Assembly (NCBI GenBank): GCA_963971535.1
Contig: OZ020598.1
Span: 100,733,169-100,797,168 of the forward strand
Direction: 5' to 3'
Length of the DNA stretch: 64,000 bases
Origin: Notolepis coatsorum
Taxonomy: Eukaryota > Chordata > Actinopteri > Aulopiformes > Paralepididae
A model generated the notes under the pieces. That model made no database searches. It was not told where the DNA came from and saw only the letters and a program-made list of their open reading frames with translations. Shown here one piece after another: positions 20,155 through 34,218 of the stretch. Made by a program: the position numbers and the translations under genes. Every line of letters begins with the position of its first letter. The stretch's first letter is position 1.

Positions 20155-20974
20155 CATTATGGTTCATCACTATGGTTACTATGGTTCATGATCACTATGG
20201 TTACTATGATTCATCACTAGGGTTTATCACTAGGGTTAATCACTATGGTTACTATGGTTCATGATCACTATGGTTACTATGGTTCATCACTAGGGTTCAT
20301 CACTAGGGTTAATCACTATGGTTACTATGGTTCATCACTATGGTTCATCACTATGGTTCATCACTATGGTTACTATGGTTCATCATCACTATGGTTACTA
20401 TGGTTCATCACTAGGGACCATCACTATGGTTCATCACTATGGTTACTATGGTTCATCATTAGGGTTCATCACTATGGTTCATCACTATGGTTACTTTGGT
20501 TCATCACTAGGGTTCATCACTAGGGTTAATCACTATGGTTCATCACTATGGTTCATCACTATGGTCCATCACTATGGTTCATCACTATGGTTACTATGGT
20601 TCATCATCACTATGATTACATACTGTAGGTGTCGATGTCCTTCAAGAATCCTGTATCTCCAAAAAGGAAAAGTCTTATTTACAGCAGGACAGCAAACACT
20701 AGGGTTTATCACTATGGTTCATCACTATGGTTCATCACTATGGTTACTATGGTTCATCACTATGGTTCATCACTATGGTTCATCACTAGGGTTCATCACT
20801 ATGGTTCATCACTATGGTTACTATGGTTCATCACTATGGTTCATCACTATGGGTACTATGGTTCATCACTATGGTTCATCACTATGGTTACTATGGTTCA
20901 TCAATATGGTTCATCACTATGGTTCATCACTATGGTTCATCACTATGGTTACTATGGTTCATCACTATGGTTCA
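20155..20974 (+). repeat. GGTTCATCACTAT / GGTTACTAT minisatellite, left block
   Basis: Built from a 13-bp unit (GGTTCATCACTAT) mixed with a 9-bp unit (GGTTACTAT) and variants with CTAGGG or CATCAT. A non-array segment of about 75 bp (20628-20698) recurs from 20077. The same array continues at 29368-29426 and 35535-35835, so two LTR elements have split it. The Tyr/Gly/Ser/His-rich frames across it are artefacts. Confidence 0.93.
20970..20974. repeat. LTR-3 target-site duplication (left), GTTCA
   Basis: GTTCA just outside the LTR, matched at 29368-29372. Both copies are part of the minisatellite unit. Confidence 0.88.
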
Positions 20975-22422
20975 TGTTGAGCACCGGTCGTAAACCGAGG
21001 TCAGATTGATTATCCCATAACTCTTTAGTCCGAATCCCAGCTTCAAGCAGCGTCCCGCGAAGCGTGAGACCTCTAGGACTCAATTTGTCTATAACGTTCA
21101 GGGCTTAAACTCAGCAGACCTCGGCTCACACACAGGAACCCCCCGTCCCCTCCAGTAATACAGTTGATTAAATGGAGTTGCGGGGTATATTTTTATTCTA
21201 TTTGCACTGGGAAGGACTCTCTTTACTTAGATGAGGTCCATTTTCCCTATCCTATGTACACGTATTATCACTATATGGCTTTACTTGATAATCCCATTAT
21301 ACAGAATGCACCTTTAGTCCTTAATGCATAATCATAAGTCTCCTTTTACTTTATTTGATAATGCCACACTTCTAAAGTTTTTATCATTAATCAAAAATTG
21401 CATGGGGTGAAGTTACAATGCAAAACACATTTCATGCTTACCCGGTCGTCTGGTCAGAAGAAAGGATACAAATCATATTTATAAAGAGGTAATTTTAATT
21501 AGAAAAAGCTAGTTACAAAAAGATACTGAAGTGGAAAGCACCCAATTCAGTTTAAAATATGCACAGAACAAAACATCTCATCTCTGCACGGCTTGTGCCC
21601 CGTGTCTGGCAGCATTCTTCTCATCTCTCAAAAAAGTCAGTAGGCACCATTCTTCTTCTCTCTCCAGCTCCGTGTAAAAACCCGCTCTTGAAAGGGCAAC
21701 CGTCCCTTTTATATCCATCTTACAATATTTCCGATTGGTCTAAACACAGTGAAGTCACAGGCTGTCATTTTTGTTTAGCAAACCAGAGTACAATACGTAA
21801 TTCGTATGAGCTCCTCCTTCTTGGTACTAACGTTACTTCTCGTTACCTAGTGATTTTTAAGTAACCGAAAGTCCCTTTTCCCTTCTAAACAGACAACGGC
21901 TTTGTCTGTGGTGACCACGTGATTTCGTACCATGTACGAGGCCTCTCCAGTATCTCTTAAGGATCCCTCCAGACAAACAGTTTTTACACATTATTCTGTT
22001 AGTATTATTCTCTACTGACACTCAATTTATAAGCATGCCATTTTGAAAACTTTTACTGTACACATCAAACATTTAATTGTTATATAGTTTCCTTTTTTAA
22101 GATCTCCCTCTATAGATTCAAGACTCTGTTTTTCAACCAGCAACCCTTCCCGTCTGAAAGGGTTAACATTTACAGCTCCCTCTCCTCTCCTCTCCTCCTC
22201 TCCTCTCCTCTCCTTGTCTCAGGGCCACATTCCTCAGGTTAACTCCCCTTTCACAGACACCAGCTCCTTCTATGGAGACATTTAAAGGCTCAGTTCCATT
22301 TTTTTTATAAGTAGAGCCATCATAGTCTTTCCAGAGTTTAGTTTACAGATTTATACTGGTCATATAGGAACGACCCAGGATGTCATTGTCCAAAAGTGTC
22401 ACTCGTTCTGTGGCATTTCACA
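20975..22422 (-). repeat. LTR-3 3' LTR
   Basis: 1448 bp. Begins TGTTGAGCACCGG and ends GGCATTTCACA. Just inside, the minus strand reads ACAGAGTGGG, a short purine tract that may serve as the polypurine tract. Confidence 0.93.
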
Positions 22423-22910
22423 CCCACTCTGTCATTCTGGGAGATCATTGTCCATCATCAATTGAATAATGAAGCATATAATTACATGTGAGAAATAGGT
22501 ATATACGGCTATATTGGAACGACTCAGGATGTCTATTTCAAAATGTGTCATTTGTTTTGTGACACTTTACACCCACTCTGCCATCCTGTGAGGTCTTTGT
22601 CCATCGTCAATTGAATAATTGAAAAAATGAAGCATATGATTACATGTGAAAAATAGGTAAATAGGGCTATATTGTAACGACTCAGGATGTCATTGTCAAA
22701 AAGTGTCATTTGTTTTGTGACACTTTACACCCACTCTGCCATCCTGTGAGGTCTTTGTCCATCGTCAATTGAATAATTGAAAAAATGAAGCATATGATTA
22801 CATGTGAAAAATAGGTAAATAGGGGTATATTGTAACGACTCAGGATGTCATTGTCAAAAAGTGTCACTTGTTCTGTGGCACTTCACACCCACTCTGTCAT
22901 TCTGGGCGGT
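22340..22910. repeat. tandem repeats of about 160 bp crossing the LTR border
   Basis: Three to four imperfect copies of a unit containing GGAACGACTCAGGATGTC, then TTTGTTTTGTGACACTTTAC, CCACTCTGCCATCCTG and AATTGAATAATTG. The first copy spans the end of the 3' LTR (22360-22422) and continues into the interior. The LTR end has therefore been copied inward, or the LTR was defined from within an older array. Confidence 0.8.
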
Positions 22911-23435
22911 CATTTTCCATTGTCTTAATAGCGTCTGTACTGGGGGACGAGATGGCGATTGTGGGGTCACGTGGCTGTGACTCTCCACACCCCCTCTGCC
23001 ATCTCGGTACCTTGTTACCCTGGTAGCCGGCGGGAAGACTTGCATTTGTTGTTCCCTGGCTGGACGGCTCGACAGGATAGGGGTCACGTTGTTGCTTGGT
23101 ATCCGGCGGGAAGACTTGCATCTGTTGTTCCCGGCCGATGCACCCAGGCTGTTGTCGTCTTGGTCATCTTGGTCACCTTGGTCATCTTGGTCACCTTGGT
23201 CATCTTGGTCATCTTGGGGTCGCCCCCTCTGACCTCTTGGATCTCTCCCATAGTTTGAGGTAGGCTGATTTGTCACTTCTCGGGCGACCCCCACGGATCC
23301 CCGAGAATTGTAGCAGCAGTCCTCTATTGAAGTGTGGTTGGCCTGGTCTTGTGACCCTGTCCGTAGGCCTCGCAGGACATGTATTACAGATACAGTCCAC
23401 AGAGGACTCATTCCTTTTCTCTCTTTCAGGTCCAT
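22911..23435 (-). pseudogene. LTR-3 interior with Asp/Gln repeats; no recognised domain
   Basis: A 193-codon minus-strand frame (22854-23435) contains a 12-bp/24-bp repeat array encoding DQDDQGDQDD (about 23148-23220) and a Cys-rich start whose residues fall in three frames (CNTC, GHKTR, DCC). This hints at a ruined zinc knuckle, but it is too degraded to call. A 58-bp segment (GTATCCGGCGGGAAGACTTG) is duplicated at 23022 and 23100. No homology is recognised. Confidence 0.3.
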
Positions 23436-23640
23436 TCAGGGCTCTCGTCGCCCTGTAACCTGGGTCCAGGCCGATGTCTCTCTGTCCGGTCTGGGAGGTC
23501 TAGGAGGTCTGGGAGGTCTGGGAGGTCTGGGAGGTCTGGGAGGTCTGGGAGGTCTGGGAGGTCTGGGAGGTCTAGATGAGGACCCTGAGGATGCTCTGGA
23601 GCTTGACCTATCCCGGTCTTCCTCCACTGGTTCAGGTTTT
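23436..23640 (-). pseudogene. duplicated piece of the LTR-3 Gag RS region with 9-bp expansion
   Basis: The minus strand reads EEDRDRSSSRASSGSSSRPP and matches Gag residues 199-216 (nt near 25870-25925), for example GGATGCTCTGGAGCTTGACC in both. Next to it a GGTCTGGGA unit repeats about 11 times (23479-23575). A Gag segment was thus copied to the 3' half and then expanded. Confidence 0.7.
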
Positions 23641-24405
23641 GTCCCTTTACCAGCGCACCTTTACCAGCGCACATTGTTCACAGGCCTTTCGGACTGTTAT
23701 CGCTCTTTGTTTGGCTTTATGTATGAGAATGTTGTTAGTTCTCAGGTATACCAACATCCTCCTGCTTCCGGCATGTCCAAGGTTATCATATACCTGTCCG
23801 ATCATGTGAGTAGCCTCGTCCTGTTAGCAATGGCTAGTTAGCCTGCTATTCGCTCCTATTCGCAATGGCTATTTCAGCCTGCTCGCAATGGCTATTTCAG
23901 CCTGCTATTCGCAATGGCTATTTCAGCCTGCTATTCGCAATGGCTATTTCAGCCTGCTATTCGCAATGGCTATTTCAGCCTGCTATTCGCAATGGCTATT
24001 TCAGCCTGCTATTCACAAAGTAGAGTTTTTTCTACTTAAGTTCTGACTTTAAGTAAGCATTTAGTTACTTCAAGTTCAAGTGACTTTAGGGCTCCCTAGC
24101 CCTATTAGTCGCGAGTAAACGCCACTTCAAGTGGTTTCTTATGAACCCTCTCTTGTTCCTGATAGATTTTTTACCTCTTAGGCTGTCTGCTGCGCTTTGC
24201 AGACCTCTACGTCACTCATTGTTCCAGATCTCGAGCACTTAGGAGGAGTCTTGGTTGGAGAGGATTGCTTGCTGATAAGATCACACTTGAGTAAGGTTTT
24301 AACTCAAATCTGTAATAAATTTTACTCCAGAGGCCCCTGACCGCAGTTATTTCAGTTCATATTCTTTCGGCTTTTGATACCTATTCAATTAGCATAAAGC
24401 CCAAC
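23641..24405. other. LTR-3 interior: 27-bp repeats and copy of the leader end
   Basis: 23855-24010 holds six copies of a 27-bp unit (GCTATTTCAGCCTGCTATTC). 24300-24395 resembles 27810-27905 next to the primer site: both have TTTTACTCCAGAGGC and later ACCTATT..TTAGTATAAA-type motifs. The element's leader has been partly duplicated into its 3' half. No coding is seen. Confidence 0.55.
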
Positions 24406-24746
24406 TCACGAATGTTCTAAGCCCCAGAACCTCCAATCCGTTTTGACAGACCTATAAACCAGTGACTCGGCCGCCCAAGCATCACAGCGTCCTGTATGCT
24501 GAAGCTTCCGAGTCCCCACAAATCTGATAGGCCCGTCGGATATAGAGACCCTGATGCTCGCTCTGTCCCCCCGCGTCAAGGTGCTAAGCTTGATGAGAGT
24601 TTGCAGAGTCTCAATTTTTATCCATAGGCGCTGGTGAGTGTACATCTCACGCAGCTGATATGGTTGGTACAGGTGCTAACCTACCAGATGGTAGCTGTCA
24701 GGAAATCCCCTTTGCATGAAATAGATTACAAATTCTTTCGTCCTCT

Positions 24747-26510
24747 CTACTCTGGTTTAGAGAAAAGACGGACATCTTTACAGTATTTGTGTTGAGAAAG
24801 CATTTTGACTTGGTCATACAGCATGCATTCCGTCCGTAACTGGTCTCGGGACCATGCTGCGCATTTGGCTGCAAGACGGTTACCACCTGGTACACCGATG
24901 AATAGCTTTTCAAGCAGTAAGCCTGATCTTTGCCTAGGCGTTCCACGTATGACTGATTCTGCTGCAACAGTGAGAGACAAGCTCCCGTCTCGCACCTGTG
25001 GGATTAGTTTCTCCACCATATTTTCCCCTGGATCTTGACCGGGGATTCTTACTTCCATTTCCATCATTTGGGCCATTGAAGCCCCTTCGGGGACCTCCAG
25101 TCCTTTGAGGTGTCTCAAAATGCGAGCGGCCTCCGGGTCATCATAGAGAGGTGACCCATGGAAAATCTGAGCACACTTATGGATATAAGCAGCCTGGGTC
25201 TCCCCTCGAAGCATTTCTGGGGCCAGTTTTTTGAGCACTTGGGTTTTGCTTAACAATTCTTGTGCTTTGTTGCTTTCTCCATATTGGGTGCTGTCACGCA
25301 GACTCCTGCCTGTTTGTGAACTCTTTCCTCTCGGTCGGTAAATGTCTCCGGGAGATTGGGCTAGTATGGAGTGAGGGCTCACTTCCGGTCGGTGTTCCTC
25401 TGTGCTGTGTCTCAGGGCTCGGATTGGGCTTATGGACGGGGCCTCGTTCAACCAGTTTCTTTCTCTCTTGGCTATTTCAGCCATGGCCCTGTCTAGCTTG
25501 TACACCTGTTCACGTAGTATGTCATAGCCTGCATGTAAGTGTGCATGCTTGTATGGTTCTGTTACCCCAGGGTGAGACAACACTTTTTCTGCCACGGGTG
25601 ACCGGGCTAAGGCCTGAGCCGTTCCCCATCTCACGGGATATGCTGGCATAATATCCCCTGTTTTCTTTCCTTCCAAGTCTCCTTCACTCTCTTCGGAGAC
25701 GTCCTCCAATCCTGAGCTCCAGGTCAAGCCCGAGGGTGACTGAAAGGTGGTGCCTTTCAGAGTAGGCCCCTTGCCTATAGGTCTCAGTTTGACCGGTTTC
25801 GCTCTCTTGTTTCGAGGTCTAGGAGGTTCGCCCCTCGGGTACCGAACTCTCTCCCTAGATCTTGATCGAGATGAAGACTTGGAGGATGCTCTGGAGCTTG
25901 ACCTATCCCGGTCTCCCTCCATTCCTGAGTCCTGATTTAGGTCAGTATACTCCTGTTCGCTACTTGCTGGGTCGTCCCCTGAGTCCGGGGGACGGCCTAG
26001 AAGTCTATGGATACTCCTGGCCTGAGATCGCGCAGGTTCCGCCTTTTCAGGTTCGAACGGTACTGTCGGTCTCCTGGGTGTGGATGATCTCCCTCTCTCC
26101 GCTGCTCGGGAGGAGTTCTGGGAGTTGGACCTTTCTTTCCTGGGTACGGGTCCCGATCCCTTAGGGTTCGGAGGGGGAGTGAGAGGTACCAATGCAGGCT
26201 CATCGTCCTCGTCTTCCTCACCCTCCCCGGCTCTATCCACGGCCAGGGTTATTGACTCATGGTCCCTAGGTTCCTTCAGCTCCTCCTCAAACTCCTCCTT
26301 CTCCAGACGAGACTGCAGCAGCTCCTGTTTGGTGCTTCGCAGTTCGTCTCTGGTGGTGTGGAACTGCTCCATCCAGTGGGCACTCTCGTCCCTGCAGTCC
26401 TCTAGCTGCTGCTGCAGGGAGCGCACCGAGGTGTTCACACGCTGCCGCTCTGCCTCGATACCTGCCTGAGACTGGGACACCTGCTCCATGCTGCTCCTCA
26501 GCCTCTCCAT
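24747..26510 (-). CDS. LTR-3 Gag-like protein with cingulin-like N-terminus
   Basis: 587 codons, uninterrupted, ATG at 26510. Residues 1-80 are a heptad-type coiled coil (MERLRSSMEQVSQSQ, TKQELLQSRLEKEEFEEEL) that resembles cingulin. At residue 81 (PRDHES) the character changes to an acidic, Pro-rich stretch (90-160), an RS/basic region (201-239) and a helical C-terminal part from about 420 (LRGETQAAYIHKCAQIFHG, AARILRHLKG, RSGLLLEKLFIGVPG) that could be a capsid-type domain. There is no CCHC knuckle. The call as Gag rests on position after the primer site and leader, composition, and the absence of enzymatic motifs. No close family is recognised. It would encode a self-assembling structural protein. 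Confidence 0.6.
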   Translation of the reverse strand: MERLRSSMEQVSQSQAGIEAERQRVNTSVRSLQQQLEDCRDESAHWMEQFHTTRDELRSTKQELLQSRLEKEEFEEELKEPRDHESITLAVDRAGEGEEDEDDEPALVPLTPPPNPKGSGPVPRKERSNSQNSSRAAERGRSSTPRRPTVPFEPEKAEPARSQARSIHRLLGRPPDSGDDPASSEQEYTDLNQDSGMEGDRDRSSSRASSKSSSRSRSRERVRYPRGEPPRPRNKRAKPVKLRPIGKGPTLKGTTFQSPSGLTWSSGLEDVSEESEGDLEGKKTGDIMPAYPVRWGTAQALARSPVAEKVLSHPGVTEPYKHAHLHAGYDILREQVYKLDRAMAEIAKRERNWLNEAPSISPIRALRHSTEEHRPEVSPHSILAQSPGDIYRPRGKSSQTGRSLRDSTQYGESNKAQELLSKTQVLKKLAPEMLRGETQAAYIHKCAQIFHGSPLYDDPEAARILRHLKGLEVPEGASMAQMMEMEVRIPGQDPGENMVEKLIPQVRDGSLSLTVAAESVIRGTPRQRSGLLLEKLFIGVPGGNRLAAKCAAWSRDQLRTECMLYDQVKMLSQHKYCKDVRLFSKPE

Positions 26511-26649
26511 GTCGGTGCTGTACTGCTCCCTGAGGGTCTCGGATCTCCCGGTCGTGCGTGGCCACCTTGTCCTTCAGCGCCCCCTTCAGGGCCGTGAGCT
26601 CCCGCTCCCGCTGCCTCAGCGTCTCCTGGAGCTGGAGGTTGTCATCCAG
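26271..26649 (-). other. captured host sequence: cingulin coiled-coil segment
   Basis: The minus strand from 26649 reads DDNLQLQETLRQRERELTAL, then KGALKDKVATHDREI, then, one frame over, TLREQYSTDMERLRSS and on into Gag residue 80 (EEFEEELKE). Vertebrate cingulin and paracingulin contain RERELTALKGALK followed, at the right distance, by a TKQELLQ.R.EKEE.EEEL block, so I match both ends of about 125 codons. A 1-bp insertion near 26548 puts the first 45 codons out of frame, and a stop (26650-26652) precedes them, so Gag starts at an internal Met. The match is from memory of the family. No intron is visible, which suggests capture from mRNA. Confidence 0.65.
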
Positions 26650-26689
26650 TTAGCATTCAGTTCACTCCTGGCTTGTCAGCCCATGTTCC

Positions 26690-27601
26690 AGTGAACACGC
26701 CGTTTCAGCTAGCGTCACGTAGCCTCGGGCTAGGTAGCCATCCAGGGAACATTCAGTGAACGGTCGTCTTGGCTGCGTGTCACGTAGTCTCCCCTCCTCA
26801 CAAACAGTATCTTTGGGCTAGGGGAGCCATCGCCTTTCTGTGAACGGTCGTTTTGACTTCGCTTCACATCCAGTCTCCCCTCCTTACAAACAGTGTCTTT
26901 GGGCTAGGGAGCCCTCGCCTTTCTGTGAACGGCCGTTTTGGCTTCGCTTCACATCCAGTCTCCCCTCCTTACAAACAGTGTCTTTGGGCTAGGGAGCCCT
27001 CGCCTTTCTGTGAACGGCCGTTTTGGCTTCGCTTCACATCCAGTCTCCCCTCCTTACAAACAGTGTCTTTGGGCTAGGGAGCCCTCGCCTTTCTGTGAAC
27101 GGCCGTTTTGGCTTCGCTTCACATCCAGTCTCCCCTCCTTACAAACAGTGTCTTTGGGCTAGGGAGCCCTCGCCTTTCTGTGAACGGCCGTTTTGGCTTC
27201 GCTTCACATCCAGTCTCCCCTCCTTACAAACAGTGTCTTTGGGCTAGGGAGCCCTCGCCTTTCTGTGAACGGCCGTTTTGGCTTCGCTTCACATCCAGTC
27301 TCCCCTCCTTACAAACAGTGTCTTTGGGCTAGGGAGCCCTCGCCTTTCTGTGAACGGCCGTTTTGGCTTCGCTTCACATCCAGTCTCCCCTCCTTACAAA
27401 CAGTGTCTTTGGGCTAGGGAGCCCTCGCCTTTCTGTGAACGGCCGTTTTGGCTTCGCTTCACATCCAGTCTCCCCTCCTTACAAACAGTGTCTTTGGGCT
27501 AGGGAGCCCTCGCCTTTCTGTGAACGGCCGTTTTGGCTTCGCTTCACATCCAGTCTCCCCTCCTTACAAACAGTGTCTTTGGGCTAGGGAGCCCTCGCCT
27601 T
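26690..27601 (-). repeat. 85-bp tandem repeats in the LTR-3 leader
   Basis: Nine near-identical copies of an 85-bp unit from about 26836 to 27601 (TTCTGTGAACGGCCGTTTTG, GCTTCGCTTCACATCCAGTC, TTGGGCTAGGGAGCCCTCGC), preceded by one or two degenerate copies from 26690. The unit carries AGGGAGCCCT-type and CGGCCG dyads. It lies between the primer site and the Gag start, so it is transcribed leader. Because 85 is not a multiple of three, the identical 74-codon frames on the plus strand are by-products. Confidence 0.95.
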
Positions 27602-27907
27602 GGGTAGGGCCAGTTCGCTTCCTGTGGGCAAAGCACGAAATTATGCTGCACTTGTAACTCCCCCCAGAGCTCTATAAACATTATGTTACCCTTTAGTTGT
27701 GAGTAAACGTTGCTTTAATCACCAAGATAGAGCTTTCTATTCATTTGTGATATCCCCGAGTAGAGCCTTCCACTCGAGTCGCCAGTAGAGCTTTCTACTT
27801 TAATTTTAGCCAAATCTGTGATTTAATTTTACTCCAGAGGCTTTTGACAGTAGTCCTGTCTTCTTCGGCCGTTTAGCACCTATTTTGGTTAGTATAAATG
27901 CACATCG
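27602..27907 (-). other. LTR-3 leader proximal to the primer site
   Basis: No gene. Short TAGAGCTTTCTA-type repeats (27730, 27760, 27783) and a segment also found at 24300-24395. By position this is where a packaging signal would be expected. Confidence 0.4.
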
Positions 27908-27919
27908 CCAGGGACGCCA
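27908..27919 (-). promoter_or_regulatory. LTR-3 primer-binding site (tRNA-Asn type)
   Basis: Directly against the 5' LTR the minus strand reads TGGCGTCCCTGG. This is the complement of the 3' end of vertebrate tRNA-Asn (…CCAGGGACG-CCA). Twelve bases match before divergence, and this match sets the element's orientation. Confidence 0.7.
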
Positions 27920-29367
27920 TGTTGAGCACCGGTCGTAAACCGAGGTCAGATTGATTATCCCATAACTCTTTAGTCCGAATCCCAGCTTCAAGCAGCGTCC
28001 CGCGAAGCGTGAGACCTCTAGGACTCAATTTGTCTATAACGTTCAGGGCTTAAACTCAGCAGACCTCGGCTCACACACAGGAACCCCCCGTCCCCTCCAG
28101 TAATACAGTTGATTAAATGGAGTTGCGGGGTATATTTGTATTCTATTTGCACTGGGAAGGACTCTCTTTACTTAGATGAGGTCCATTTTCCCTATCCTAT
28201 GTACACGTATTATCACTATATGGCTTTACTTGATAATCCCATTATACAGAATGCACCTTTAGTCCTTAATGCATAATCATAAGTCTCCTTTTACTTTATT
28301 TGATAATGCCACACTTCTAAAGTTTTTATCATTAATCAAAAATTGCATGGGGTGAAGTTACAATGCAAAACACATTTCATGCTTACCCGGTCGTCTGGTC
28401 AGAAGAAAGGATACAAATCATATTTATAAAGAGGTAATTTTAATTAGAAAAAGCTAGTTACAAAAAGATACTGAAGTGGAAAGCACCCAATTCAGTTTAA
28501 AATATGCACAGAACAAAACATCTCATCTCTGCACGGCTTGTGCCCCGTGTCTGGCAGCATTCTTCTCATCTCTCAAAAAAGTCAGTAGGCACCATTCTTC
28601 TTCTCTCTCCAGCTCCGTGTAAAAACCCGCTCTTGAAAGGGCAACCGTCCCTTTTATATCCATCTTACAATATTTCCGATTGGTCTAAACACAGTGAAGT
28701 CACAGGCTGTCATTTTTGTTTAGCAAACCAGAGTACAATACGTAATTCGTATGAGCTCCTCCTTCTTGGTACTAACGTTACTTCTCGTTACCTAGTGATT
28801 TTTAAGTAACCGAAAGTCCCTTTTCCCTTCTAAACAGACAACGGCTTTGTCTGTGGTGACCACGTGATTTCGTACCATGTACGAGGCCTCTCCAGTATCT
28901 CTTAAGGATCCCTCCAGACAAACAGTTTTTACACATTATTCTGTTAGTATTATTCTCTACTGACACTCAATTTATAAGCATGCCATTTTGAAAACTTTTA
29001 CTGTACACATCAAACATTTAATTGTTATATAGTTTCCTTTTTTAAGATCTCCCTCTATAGATTCAAGACTCTGTTTTTCAACCAGCAACCCTTCCCGTCT
29101 GAAAGGGTTAACATTTACAGCTCCCTCTCCTCTCCTCTCCTCCTCTCCTCTCCTCTCCTTGTCTCAGGGCCACATTCCTCAGGTTAACTCCCCTTTCACA
29201 GACACCAGCTCCTTCTATGGAGACATTTAAAGGCTCAGTTCCATTTTTTTTATAAGTAGAGCCATCATAGTCTTTCCAGAGTTTAGTTTACAGATTTATA
29301 CTGGTCATATAGGAACGACCCAGGATGTCATTGTCCAAAAGTGTCACTCGTTCTGTGGCATTTCACA
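27920..29367 (-). repeat. LTR-3 5' LTR
   Basis: 1448 bp, essentially identical to 20975-22422. On the minus strand a good TATA box (GATATAAAAGGGACGG, about 28647-28662) precedes the likely start site, and AATAAA lies further on (near 28288-28297). A plus-strand frame of 101 codons present in both LTRs is antisense to the transcript and is not supported as a gene. Confidence 0.93.
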
Positions 29368-29426
29368 GTTCATCACTATGGTTACTATGGTTCATCACTA
29401 TGGTTACTATGGTTCATCATCACTAT
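29368..29426 (+). repeat. minisatellite, middle block (59 bp)
   Basis: GTTCATCACTATGGTTACTA and further units, the same as 20155-20974. It starts with the LTR-3 duplication GTTCA and ends with the BEL-2 duplication ACTAT, so it is the only array DNA left between two independent insertions. Confidence 0.93.
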
Positions 29427-30684: not shown

Positions 30685-33600
30685 ATGGCCGATGACGAAC
30701 ACTCCACAAACGGTTCTCCTAAGCTAGATCGCCCGCAGCGCAGACGGCAGCCACCTCCCTATCTAGAGGCATACGCTGTCAGTCCAATACCTAGCTTTAA
30801 AGGGAAGTTAAACGCGGAAAAAGTAGAAAGTAAAATTATGTCCGACCCTAACAACCAGGTTACCCCGACCACAGAGGCCCTAGTGGGTTCTAATGTAACT
30901 GACCAAGCTCACGGTGGGGACCAGGAGGGAACTGACACGACTTTACCCGCAGACAATACCGAAGAAATAGTCCCCGATCAGCTCCGGGAGGAAGACAACC
31001 CTAAAGAGACGCGCACCCAGGAGACGGATCTCCTCGGTACGCAACAGGAGAACGGATCTCCAACAAGTACTGCCGGAAGCCGATCGCCCCGAACGGCGTC
31101 TTCCCCCAGCGAGGCGGACAAGATGCTGGCGCAGGCACTCATCGCCACCCTGGCAGCCTCCACCGAACGCGATCGACTTCAAGCGCAACAGACGTGCGAG
31201 CGCGAACATTTTGCAGGCGAGCGAGAGCGCTTCCAGGCGCAACAAAGGAGTGAAGACAACCGAATAAGACTGGAGACCAGACGCCTCCAGACAGAAGAGA
31301 ACATCGAGAGAAGCCGCGCCGACGTCGCAAATGCACAGCTCCACGCCGCCCATGCCAGCGCCAATGCCCAGCGTGACGTCGCCAACGCACAGCGCGACGC
31401 TGCCCAGGCCAGCGCCAATGCGCAGCGCGACATCGCCAATGCCCAGCGCGAAGCAGCGCGCGACGCAGCCCATGCCCGGCGCGAGGCAGAGCGCGACCGG
31501 CTGCAGGCGGAGCTGATGGACAAACTGGTTGCCATGGCGACACCCCCTCACTCCACACGGTGCTCTCAGAGATCGTCAAGACATGGGTCTAGGACACATT
31601 CCCCTACCCGACGAAGCGACCCGGGACCCCGCCAACAGGAGGATCCTGTCCACGTCTCCGAACCCCCTCCCCAGCCGGTCCATACGAGACCCAGCAACCG
31701 GGAAGAATCGGACCACGCCGAGAGACTGAACAGAAGACTCCAGGTCCTAGCAGAGGGAGAGGAGGAGGAGGAGGAGGAGTGTCAAGCCGACCAGCAGCAA
31801 CGTACTCTGGCCCAGGAGGCCCAGTACAGCCCCGACCAGCAGCAACGTACTCAGAACCAGGAGGTCCAGTACAGCCCAGAAGTCAGCCCCGAGGCCCTGC
31901 GCTACAAACCCCCGACTCAACTCACGGGTGAGTTTGACGCACCGTCAGCCCCGAGGAACAGCACCTGGGTACCCGACCTTCGGTACCCACCAAGTACCAG
32001 CCCAAGACGACACGCAAGAGGAGACTCGCCGAGGAGTCCTCTCCCCCAACGCTCACCGATGTGCCAGTCATCCATGGCATCATACATTGGCACACCGACG
32101 TTTCCAGACTTCACCCATGAGAATCGAGCACAGTATACGGAGCTCCGGATGTGCTTAGAGACAATGATGGTGGATGTCGCTGATGAACGCCACAAGTATG
32201 CAATATTACTGCAGCACCTGAAAGTGCCCCGGGCGCACAATATAGCGCTAGCCTATGCCACCTCTACGACCCCATACACCGCGGCTCTAGCAGCGCTGGA
32301 CCAGAGATATGGACGTATATGGGATTACGTAATAGAAGAGATAAGGCATATTGACCGCTTACCCCCAGCAACAGACAATCGCTCACTAGACGACCTGTCT
32401 ATAAAAGTACAGTCCCTGGTAGGGATGCTGGGAGCGCAACGAGAAAAGGGTATGCACGAGCTATACGCCAACTCTAACGTCGAGAGGATTTTAGAGAAGC
32501 TGCCGCCCGCCAGACAGGAGCGCTTCAGGCGGCAAAGAGACCACCGTGATCCTAACGGTCCAGAACCATCCCTCCTAGACTTGGCCGACTTCCTGGCGAG
32601 AGAAGTCAGCAGCCTACGATTGGATACGTTCGTGCGGAGCACACCAAGCTCCAGAGAGGGACCTAGGAGAGTAAACGATGGCCGAAGATCGGTGACTGTT
32701 ATGCACCAAGCCGAATCAGTACCGCAGCACCAGAACCACAACACCCCCTCGACGAAAGAGGACCAGTGGAAGATTGAGTGCCAGTACTGTGAGGGAGGAC
32801 ATCGGCTCTATCAGTGCGAAGATTTCAAGAAGCTGACCACGGATGATGTGAGCCAGTGGGTCAAGGACCACCGCCGCTGCTTCCGCTGCGCGCGCAGCCA
32901 CCTAGCAGCTGAGTGCCGCTTGAAAAAGAAGTGCAGCAGGTGCGGTGGCACCCACTTGGAGGTCCTGCATGACATCAACAGGCGTCAGCCAGGACAACAG
33001 AGTGGGCCCGTCGCGGTAATGTACCATGCCGAGGCGGTGGCACCAGAACCAAAGTTCCACCAGACCGCTCCCTGGTGTCCCGACTGCTACGGCAGACACT
33101 GGGAGTCAAGGTGCGACTCGCACCATATAGAGTCTACGTCACCACCCGAGACAGGAGTGCTCCACATAGACCCCCAGCATAGCGGGACCCCCCGTGTGCT
33201 CCTCAAAGTGGTCAGAGTGCTCCTGAGCCACGAGGACAAGGTCCTGGACACTTACGCCGTCCTGGACGATGGGTCTGAGAAGACTCTCCTCCTCGCTTCC
33301 GCAGCAGCCCAGTTGGGCCTGCGAGGTGTCAAAGATACGATGACCATACGCACCATCAGAAGGGACCAGAAGACCATAAAGGGTGAAAAGGTCTCCTTCG
33401 AGATAGCAGCGGTGGACAAGCCCGAGAAGCAGTATAGTATAAGTAACGTCTTCACCAGCCACGACATAGGCCTGTCGCAGTACACCTACCCCATCCCACA
33501 GCTGATGGCTAAGTATGGGCACCTACGTCAACTACCTATACCGCTTATCGACGGCGCCACACCGACCCTGCTCATCGGCTCCGACCACGCGGACCTCATT

Positions 33601-34218
33601 CTCCCAATTGAGGCGGCCCACGTCGGACCCAAAGGATGCCCGGTCGCGGTTCAGACCCGACTGGGATGGACGCTCCAAGGCCCCCTCTACGGACTTGACA
33701 GTCAACCCACGTCTACAAGCTGCCTACACACAGAGGCGAGCGACACCGGCCTCTCCCCCGTACAGCAGAGGCTATTGACATTAAGCGAGAGGCCCGTGAG
33801 AGAACCGTGGGTACCAGAGGGAGTTCGGAACTCCACCCCCCTCAGCTGCGCTTCAGACGTAGCTGACCTCGAACCCAGCACCCCAAGCGACTCCTTGACG
33901 GGGCGGCCGGGACCGGCCCCTCCTCACACGGGGTACAGAGCGAACAAGAGAAACAGACGGAGGAGGAGAAAGCACAGCCAAGCACAGATCAAAGCAGTCT
34001 CAGGCCCGCTTCCTCCTAAGCCCACCTTCATCCCGTCCAGTCGTCATGACCATAGACCAGTCACCACCCCGAGCTGCGTGGCCGGCCGGCCGCGTAAGCA
34101 AAGTGACCACTGGTGCCGACGGAAAGGTCAGAGTGGCAGAAGTGCTCGGCCAAGGGCGGATCTACAACCGACCCGTGGCGAGGCTGATAGAGTCGCCAAG
34201 GCTCCCCGACTCGCCTAA
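30685..34218 (+). CDS. BEL-2 Gag-protease polyprotein with integrase remnants
   Basis: 1177 codons without a stop. The start MADDEHSTNGSPKLDRPQ matches the BEL-1 Gag N-terminus. Residues 140-285 form an Ala/Arg/Glu-rich coiled coil with an expanded NAQRD..AN repeat. The Gag core (SYIGTPTFPDFTH) follows near 470-660. Zinc knuckles lie at 699 (CQYCEGGHRLYQC), 732 (CFRCARSHLAAEC) and 750 (CSRCGGTHLEVLH), and a fourth, CPDCYGRHWESRC, at 798 is absent from BEL-1. The protease DDGSE is at 861-865. After about residue 1035 the sequence jumps from the Gag-Pol linker to an integrase C-terminal piece (SDVADLEPSTP). The last 65 or so residues read integrase DNA in a shifted frame, whose native frame is at 34046-34237. 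It could make virus-like cores but no polymerase. Confidence 0.88.
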   Translation: MADDEHSTNGSPKLDRPQRRRQPPPYLEAYAVSPIPSFKGKLNAEKVESKIMSDPNNQVTPTTEALVGSNVTDQAHGGDQEGTDTTLPADNTEEIVPDQLREEDNPKETRTQETDLLGTQQENGSPTSTAGSRSPRTASSPSEADKMLAQALIATLAASTERDRLQAQQTCEREHFAGERERFQAQQRSEDNRIRLETRRLQTEENIERSRADVANAQLHAAHASANAQRDVANAQRDAAQASANAQRDIANAQREAARDAAHARREAERDRLQAELMDKLVAMATPPHSTRCSQRSSRHGSRTHSPTRRSDPGPRQQEDPVHVSEPPPQPVHTRPSNREESDHAERLNRRLQVLAEGEEEEEEECQADQQQRTLAQEAQYSPDQQQRTQNQEVQYSPEVSPEALRYKPPTQLTGEFDAPSAPRNSTWVPDLRYPPSTSPRRHARGDSPRSPLPQRSPMCQSSMASYIGTPTFPDFTHENRAQYTELRMCLETMMVDVADERHKYAILLQHLKVPRAHNIALAYATSTTPYTAALAALDQRYGRIWDYVIEEIRHIDRLPPATDNRSLDDLSIKVQSLVGMLGAQREKGMHELYANSNVERILEKLPPARQERFRRQRDHRDPNGPEPSLLDLADFLAREVSSLRLDTFVRSTPSSREGPRRVNDGRRSVTVMHQAESVPQHQNHNTPSTKEDQWKIECQYCEGGHRLYQCEDFKKLTTDDVSQWVKDHRRCFRCARSHLAAECRLKKKCSRCGGTHLEVLHDINRRQPGQQSGPVAVMYHAEAVAPEPKFHQTAPWCPDCYGRHWESRCDSHHIESTSPPETGVLHIDPQHSGTPRVLLKVVRVLLSHEDKVLDTYAVLDDGSEKTLLLASAAAQLGLRGVKDTMTIRTIRRDQKTIKGEKVSFEIAAVDKPEKQYSISNVFTSHDIGLSQYTYPIPQLMAKYGHLRQLPIPLIDGATPTLLIGSDHADLILPIEAAHVGPKGCPVAVQTRLGWTLQGPLYGLDSQPTSTSCLHTEASDTGLSPVQQRLLTLSERPVREPWVPEGVRNSTPLSCASDVADLEPSTPSDSLTGRPGPAPPHTGYRANKRNRRRRRKHSQAQIKAVSGPLPPKPTFIPSSRHDHRPVTTPSCVAGRPRKQSDHWCRRKGQSGRSARPRADLQPTRGEADRVAKAPRLA

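Follow-up and report, generated by a model that had tools for sequence, protein, structure and literature searches.

Evidence that a pol-less, foamy-like LTR retroelement of Notolepis coatsorum has captured host cingulin coding sequence containing the start of its Gag frame

The window analyzed here, a stretch of 64,000 nucleotides of Notolepis coatsorum DNA, carries on its minus strand an LTR element at 20975-29367. The paired LTRs, each of 1448 bp (5' LTR, 27920..29367, TG...CA on the minus strand; 3' LTR, 20975..22422), differ at 1 of 1448 sites, and the target-site duplication GTTCA is found on both outer flanks. The primer-binding site TGGCGTCCCTGG adjoins the LTR at 27908..27919, and we take it to be a match to the 3' end of tRNA-Asn; in one cingulin-free relative it reads TGGCGTCCCTGGGTGGGC. 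Further along the minus strand are a leader array of ten 85-bp repeats (26752..27601), ∼92% identical to the repeats of a cingulin-free relative (L064, described below), and a Gag ORF of 587 aa (24747..26510), in which ∼79 cingulin residues are followed by retroviral Gag lacking 224 residues. The 3' region (22423..24746, minus strand) consists of simple repeats and a 56-bp gag-derived stretch. Neither the reverse transcriptase piece of one relative (L065) nor the Gag of another (L063) had a match in window 22423-24746 at E ≤ 0.01, and no long frame was detected in the first 1.4-1.6 kb downstream of gag in three other copies. With paired LTRs, target-site duplication and primer-binding site all present, the window element is a non-autonomous LTR retroelement, and the comparisons described below support its being a pol-less derivative of a retroviral family with a foamy-virus-like reverse transcriptase. 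The 56-bp stretch, at window 23571-23626 (minus) within the 3' region, is 89% identical to the element's own gag, which suggests a rearrangement at the time of pol loss. The insertion site of the element is a tandem array of 13-bp-type TATGGTTCATCAC repeats (window 20158-20975 and 29368-29419).

A preliminary description of this DNA had placed the coiled coil of cingulin, read on the minus strand, between the leader repeats and Gag, and the homology that we find, 26649..26272, agrees with it to within one base. The Gag ATG, said to lie inside the captured piece, is at 26510, the first such codon to follow the preceding in-frame stop, and the host-derived Gag N-terminus, given then as 80 residues, corresponds to the ∼79 residues noted above. 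When compared with fish cingulin, residues 1-68 of the ORF were identical at 63 of 68 positions to cingulin of Myripristis, and the source name shown reads cingulin for 18 of the 24 matches in the protein search; the match is specific to cingulin and is not a generic coiled-coil similarity. The host cingulin gene was located on contig C46 of the same genome (assembly G000, 3.42 Gb), and the captured piece is collinear with it. On the minus strand of the window, the piece comprises a fragment of exon A (26621..26649), part of exon B (26472..26627), which ends at the host splice donor and holds both a 1-bp insertion and the Gag ATG, exon C (26323..26471), with splice boundaries at both ends, and the start of exon D (26272..26322), which is 14 nt longer in undeleted copies, extending to ...CTGCAGGAGCGAG. 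Copy L031 is the same as the window copy at 378 of 378 bases of the piece, and over the part to the right of the A-to-B jump it is identical to host exons B-D at 364 of 370 positions, the differences being 4 substitutions and 2 single-base gaps. One of these gaps is the 1-bp insertion common to the copies; the other, which disrupts the host reading frame, is possibly an assembly error. The paralogue on contig C7 is 72-82% identical in the matched pieces. The C-terminal exons of host cingulin lie on the opposite strand (C46:79.396-79.404 Mb vs. 79.455-79.468 Mb), representing either a local inversion or an assembly error.

The comparison of exon boundaries bears on how the piece was obtained. 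At B|C and at C|D, the joint falls on a GT-AG boundary of the host gene, two introns having been removed exactly, and therefore the source was spliced mRNA. Upstream, two separate exons of cingulin meet within the stretch LDDNLQLQ|ETLRQ. Arrival of the segment as genomic DNA or by gene conversion, without mRNA, is very improbable, since the two introns are absent at GT-AG boundaries and all 40 copies carry the B|C and C|D joints exactly or with a single mismatch; we found no point in its favor. Still less credible is an assembly artefact or a chance resemblance. Coiled coils are prone to false similarity, but the piece has 98% DNA identity to one host gene, with the paralogue clearly more distant, on which basis chance similarity was rejected; furthermore, the genome contains 100 exact matches to the 42 bases of the left joint, compared to 0 for the reversed control. 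We consider the capture of a coding segment from host cingulin, one that includes the Gag start, to be supported, because the splice joints are exact, identity to the resident gene reaches 98%, cingulin-free relatives exist, and the left joint is found exactly at 100 places. The 1-bp insertion reported previously is real (26541-26542, in 40 of 40 copies including the window), and the upstream codons that it leaves out of frame belong to the 5' leader, because the Gag ATG lies downstream of the insertion.

Short stretches of common sequence mark all three non-splice joints. At the left joint, the relative's leader reads ...GCTAACTGGATGGCTACC, the host ...TGTCTGGATGACAACC and the hybrid ...GCTAACTGGATGACAACC, with CTGGATG (window 26649-26643) common to them. 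At the right joint, where GCGAG is the common sequence, the host reads ...CAGGAGCGAGTGAAC and the hybrid ...CAGGAGCGAGATCACTCC; of 5 native pieces from relatives, 4 read ...CAGGGCGAGATTACTCC and the other, L070, reads CAGGGTGAGATTACTCC, and a sister copy without cingulin (L080) reads CAGGGCGAGATCACTCC. The step from exon A to exon B is made at a common AGGAGAC (26627-26621), and because both breakpoints are exon-internal, we rejected exon skipping and consider this step to be a jump without splicing. Intron-free host sequence and microhomology joints are both present, as in a retroviral transduction of host mRNA, and the short matches between the donor and the outer joints suggest template switching on the spliced message. 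In three copies (L038, L078 and L079), the same cingulin start is joined to an 85-bp leader repeat through ACTGGATG, instead of to the leader end.

A genome search revealed further copies of the element both with and without the cingulin segment. The hybrid copies compared here are the best 40 of 126 candidates from a DNA search, hence the most similar ones, and are 99-100% identical over the piece. At a tolerance of 1 mismatch, 39 of the 40 have the left joint, the exception being L038, and 39 of 40 have the right joint, where the exception is the window copy itself. There, a deletion joint at 26271..26272 (minus strand) has removed 672 bp in frame (224 Gag codons) at a GGA microhomology, and none of the other 39 copies has this deletion. 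The window copy is a shortened member, and its direct cingulin-PRDHESI joint is secondary. A different internal deletion is carried by L008 (the same copy as L028). Among the 39 non-window copies, 28 retain an ORF that begins at the cingulin ATG and reaches the common stop (26 of 811 aa, one of 809 and one of 808), and the other 11 are truncated. Pairs of left joints were also seen 7-8.5 kb apart on one strand (C27:108984512/108992525, C44:6472799/6479912 and C4:101691385/101699896), suggesting tandem elements with a common LTR.

Relatives lacking the segment identify the family from which the hybrid was derived. P0001 was the only Gag relative among the matches listed in two protein searches carried out with word, length and candidate limits, and its use as a query scored 59 places of 11369 candidates in the genome. 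Starting at the right joint, 2163 bp of one relative (L063) align to the hybrid at 86.9% identity, and beyond this stretch the relative continues into a protease-like frame, LVDTGAE. A second (L064, L066) agrees with the window element in LTR end, primer site and leader repeats, and the window and one relative copy are 93% identical over 454 bp across the LTR end and primer site. In L064, the Gag frame begins further upstream and contains a macro domain (Pfam PF01661, E 4.9e-8, above its cut-off), located at residues 160-278 of the Gag frame on minus strand 3-1265 of that piece. A third copy, L065, contains reverse transcriptase and RNase H; within the best 60 of 211 PDB matches, the top one is simian foamy virus (7kse, E 1.6e-71) and the best non-foamy one is 4ol8 (E 4.6e-26), in a structure library that we presume may lack epsilon and class III reverse transcriptases. 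Simian foamy Pol is also the only named virus in the protein matches of L065 (31% over 98%), and is outscored by unnamed fish and ENA proteins. Six cingulin-free gag pieces are 86.1-90.5% identical to the hybrid; no cingulin was found in these six, and the gag match begins at the joint in 5 of them and 7 bases later in L070. Because the gag family is common to the pieces, they appear to come from one full-length autonomous element, known here from pieces of different copies. By these comparisons, the reverse transcriptase of the family, as represented by one relative (L065), appears closest to that of spumaviruses, and the common LTR, leader and gag place the window element in this foamy-like family. 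The Gag pieces L014 and P0001 matched no Pfam family at E ≤ 1.

Closer relatives of the hybrid provide information about the state of Gag at the time of capture. The hybrid gag end, where pol is missing, is present at a minimum of 132 places in the genome, and 17 listed gag-end places without the exact left joint were picked by eye. Cingulin was present in 8 of these, 2 (L075 and L090) had no gag in the piece, and the remaining 7, which lack cingulin, are 97.9-98.6% identical to the hybrid from the right joint onward. In six of the 7 sisters, the Gag frame upstream of the joint is open over 168 codons or more and includes 13-15 LAQ-type units encoded by a 15-bp repeat, and this pentapeptide array apparently serves as their Gag N-terminus. 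The repeat in these sisters (L076, L081, L082, L087, L088 and L092) is an in-frame minisatellite coding LAQEE/LAQQM pentapeptides. The array is helix-prone, without a heptad pattern. In the three array sisters that were read upstream, by way of neighbors L083-L085, the frame spans 209-239 codons and is preceded by a stop and leader-type repeats, with no room for the macro region. The seventh sister (L080) is without an array; its frame is open for only 48 codons ahead of the joint, with a stop further on, and its leader is joined downstream of the macro region. Accordingly, the macro region is absent in 4 of the 4 sisters (of 7) seen far enough upstream.

These N-termini affect how the earlier proposal, that the coil replaces or adds to Gag multimerisation, should be read. 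Relatives examined upstream of the joint carry other N-termini, so simple N-terminal addition to Gag was rejected and replacement of an N-terminus was retained. The macro-less Gag seems to occur with two helical N-termini, cingulin being one of them, and the cingulin piece was probably captured in a lineage already devoid of both pol and the macro region. One tentative extension, which we put forward as a possibility rather than as the favored reading, is that Gag in this family has an N-terminal half that can be swapped as an oligomerisation module, and that after macro loss the pol-less lineage was equipped twice independently, by expansion of the 15-bp repeat into the LAQEE-type array and by capture of the cingulin coil.

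The cingulin coil would most likely act as a dimerising N-terminal module, letting the macro-less Gag multimerise. Hydrophobic heptad spacing in the 82 cingulin residues tested was significant by shuffling (p = 0.0002, 5000 shuffles). A PDB sequence search with the coil gave only three weak matches (best E 0.06), and Pfam gave three weak coiled-coil-type matches on the window Gag (E 0.033-0.34), all below cut-off. The N-terminal domain of prototype foamy virus (PFV) Gag is reported to dimerise through a coiled coil, which is one of two regions described as required for assembly (PMC3649970). By analogy with foamy Gag, we would give about an even chance to the idea that the coil lets this Gag self-associate, and the Gag of a foamy-like family, without its macro half and carrying a host coil or a helical array, fits such a role.

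Translation would start at the cingulin ATG (context CCGACATGG), as we infer from the reading frame. Gag changes among the 40 copies comprised 79 nonsynonymous, 42 synonymous and 4 stop changes (expected shares 0.677/0.284/0.039), near neutral expectation by simple comparison of the shares, and those found in at least 2 copies (17 nonsynonymous, 12 synonymous and 0 stop) lean a little to constraint, judged in the same way. The leader repeats misalign, and hence offer no usable noncoding control for selection among copies; the cingulin codons vary at 4 sites only (3 nonsynonymous, 1 synonymous) and are uninformative either way. Between the hybrid and one relative, dN was 0.109 and dS 0.311 over 727 codons, figures that show constraint on Gag, and most of this divergence probably predates the capture, because there are few cingulin changes by comparison. 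The neutral-passenger alternative, in which the piece was captured accidentally, happened to be in frame and spread along with a successful master copy, bears only on the functional step, and we consider it a real possibility, although not the probable one. It is consistent with the near-neutral shares of changes among copies, with a frame kept at a one-in-three chance, with the 18 ATGs found in the window leader ahead of that of Gag, and with the youth indicated by window LTRs that differ at a single site. However, the hybrid lacks the start regions seen in its relatives, and the start codon that Gag then needs is available in the piece; a helical N-terminus is also found in 6 of the 7 cingulin-free sisters; and the frame is kept in 28 of 39 copies, though intact frames could be explained by youth alone. 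Retargeting of Gag by the coil to host cell junctions or actomyosin, shifting the site of particle formation, is quite unlikely. Cingulin is a junction protein, and Pfam matches a myosin tail in another part of the fish cingulin P0004, with 618-866 as its best stretch, but only 84 residues from the middle of the protein are kept, and the cingulin head, which binds ZO-1, is absent.

The sequence of events that best accounts for the data begins with a pol-less, non-autonomous descendant of a family with foamy-like reverse transcriptase, which would have gained cingulin from spliced mRNA, most likely co-packaged. Reverse transcriptase would have switched templates at CTGGATG, AGGAGAC and GCGAG, setting ∼392 nt of cingulin cDNA in frame between leader and Gag. 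The piece would then have given Gag its start codon and 84 residues replacing another N-terminus, with enzymes presumably supplied in trans by pol-bearing relatives, and subsequent amplification would have produced the exact left joints now found throughout the genome. We regard this explanation as a whole as highly probable, a judgment that applies mainly to capture and route, with the functional step about evenly balanced within it.

Retroviruses are known to transduce oncogenes as Gag fusions, including v-abl, v-fps and similar cases. The hybrid resembles them in that a spliced host mRNA was captured and fused in frame with gag, and in being a defective derivative, presumably helper-dependent. 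In oncogene transducers, however, the host part is a signaling protein downstream of gag sequence, whereas here a structural coil makes up the N-terminus and offers the start codon, in a germ-line element present in many copies. Foamy viruses (Spumaretrovirinae) and fish foamy-like endogenous retroviruses are similar in the reverse transcriptase, that of the relative being closest to simian foamy virus among structures (best 60 of 211). In contrast to foamy viruses, the scanned Gag pieces have no Pfam family, the relative's Gag has a macro domain, and pol was not detected in the window element. Among teleost retroviruses, cases with cellular genes, including those for macro-domain proteins, have been described (Basta et al., 2009, as cited in PMC4977317); these host-type genes are described as additional ORFs on epsilon-like sequences, whereas here the macro domain is within the Gag frame of a foamy-like family, and cingulin is N-terminal in a derivative. 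Coding sequence has also been acquired by LTR retrotransposons of bdelloid rotifers, where captured, additional ORFs are described (PMC5408684), as opposed to the exchange of a Gag N-terminus. Host-gene capture is known in kind, and in the open-licence literature we found no report of this exchange; by title, none of the papers there on cingulin with a retrotransposon or endogenous retrovirus concerns it.

The record of host-gene capture is unusually complete, with donor, pol-bearing relatives, cingulin-free sisters, joints and amplified product in one genome, and it concerns host sequence incorporated into a structural viral protein, as opposed to a passenger oncogene. It also makes testable now whether Gag assembly needs a specific N-terminal fold, or anything that brings Gag molecules together. 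Beyond the element, on the plus strand of the window at 30685-34218, lies an ORF of 1177 aa with zinc-knuckle-like and protease-like stretches and sub-cut-off Pfam matches to REV (E 0.0082) and DUF1759 (E 0.046), which we take to resemble a BEL/Pao-type Gag-protease.
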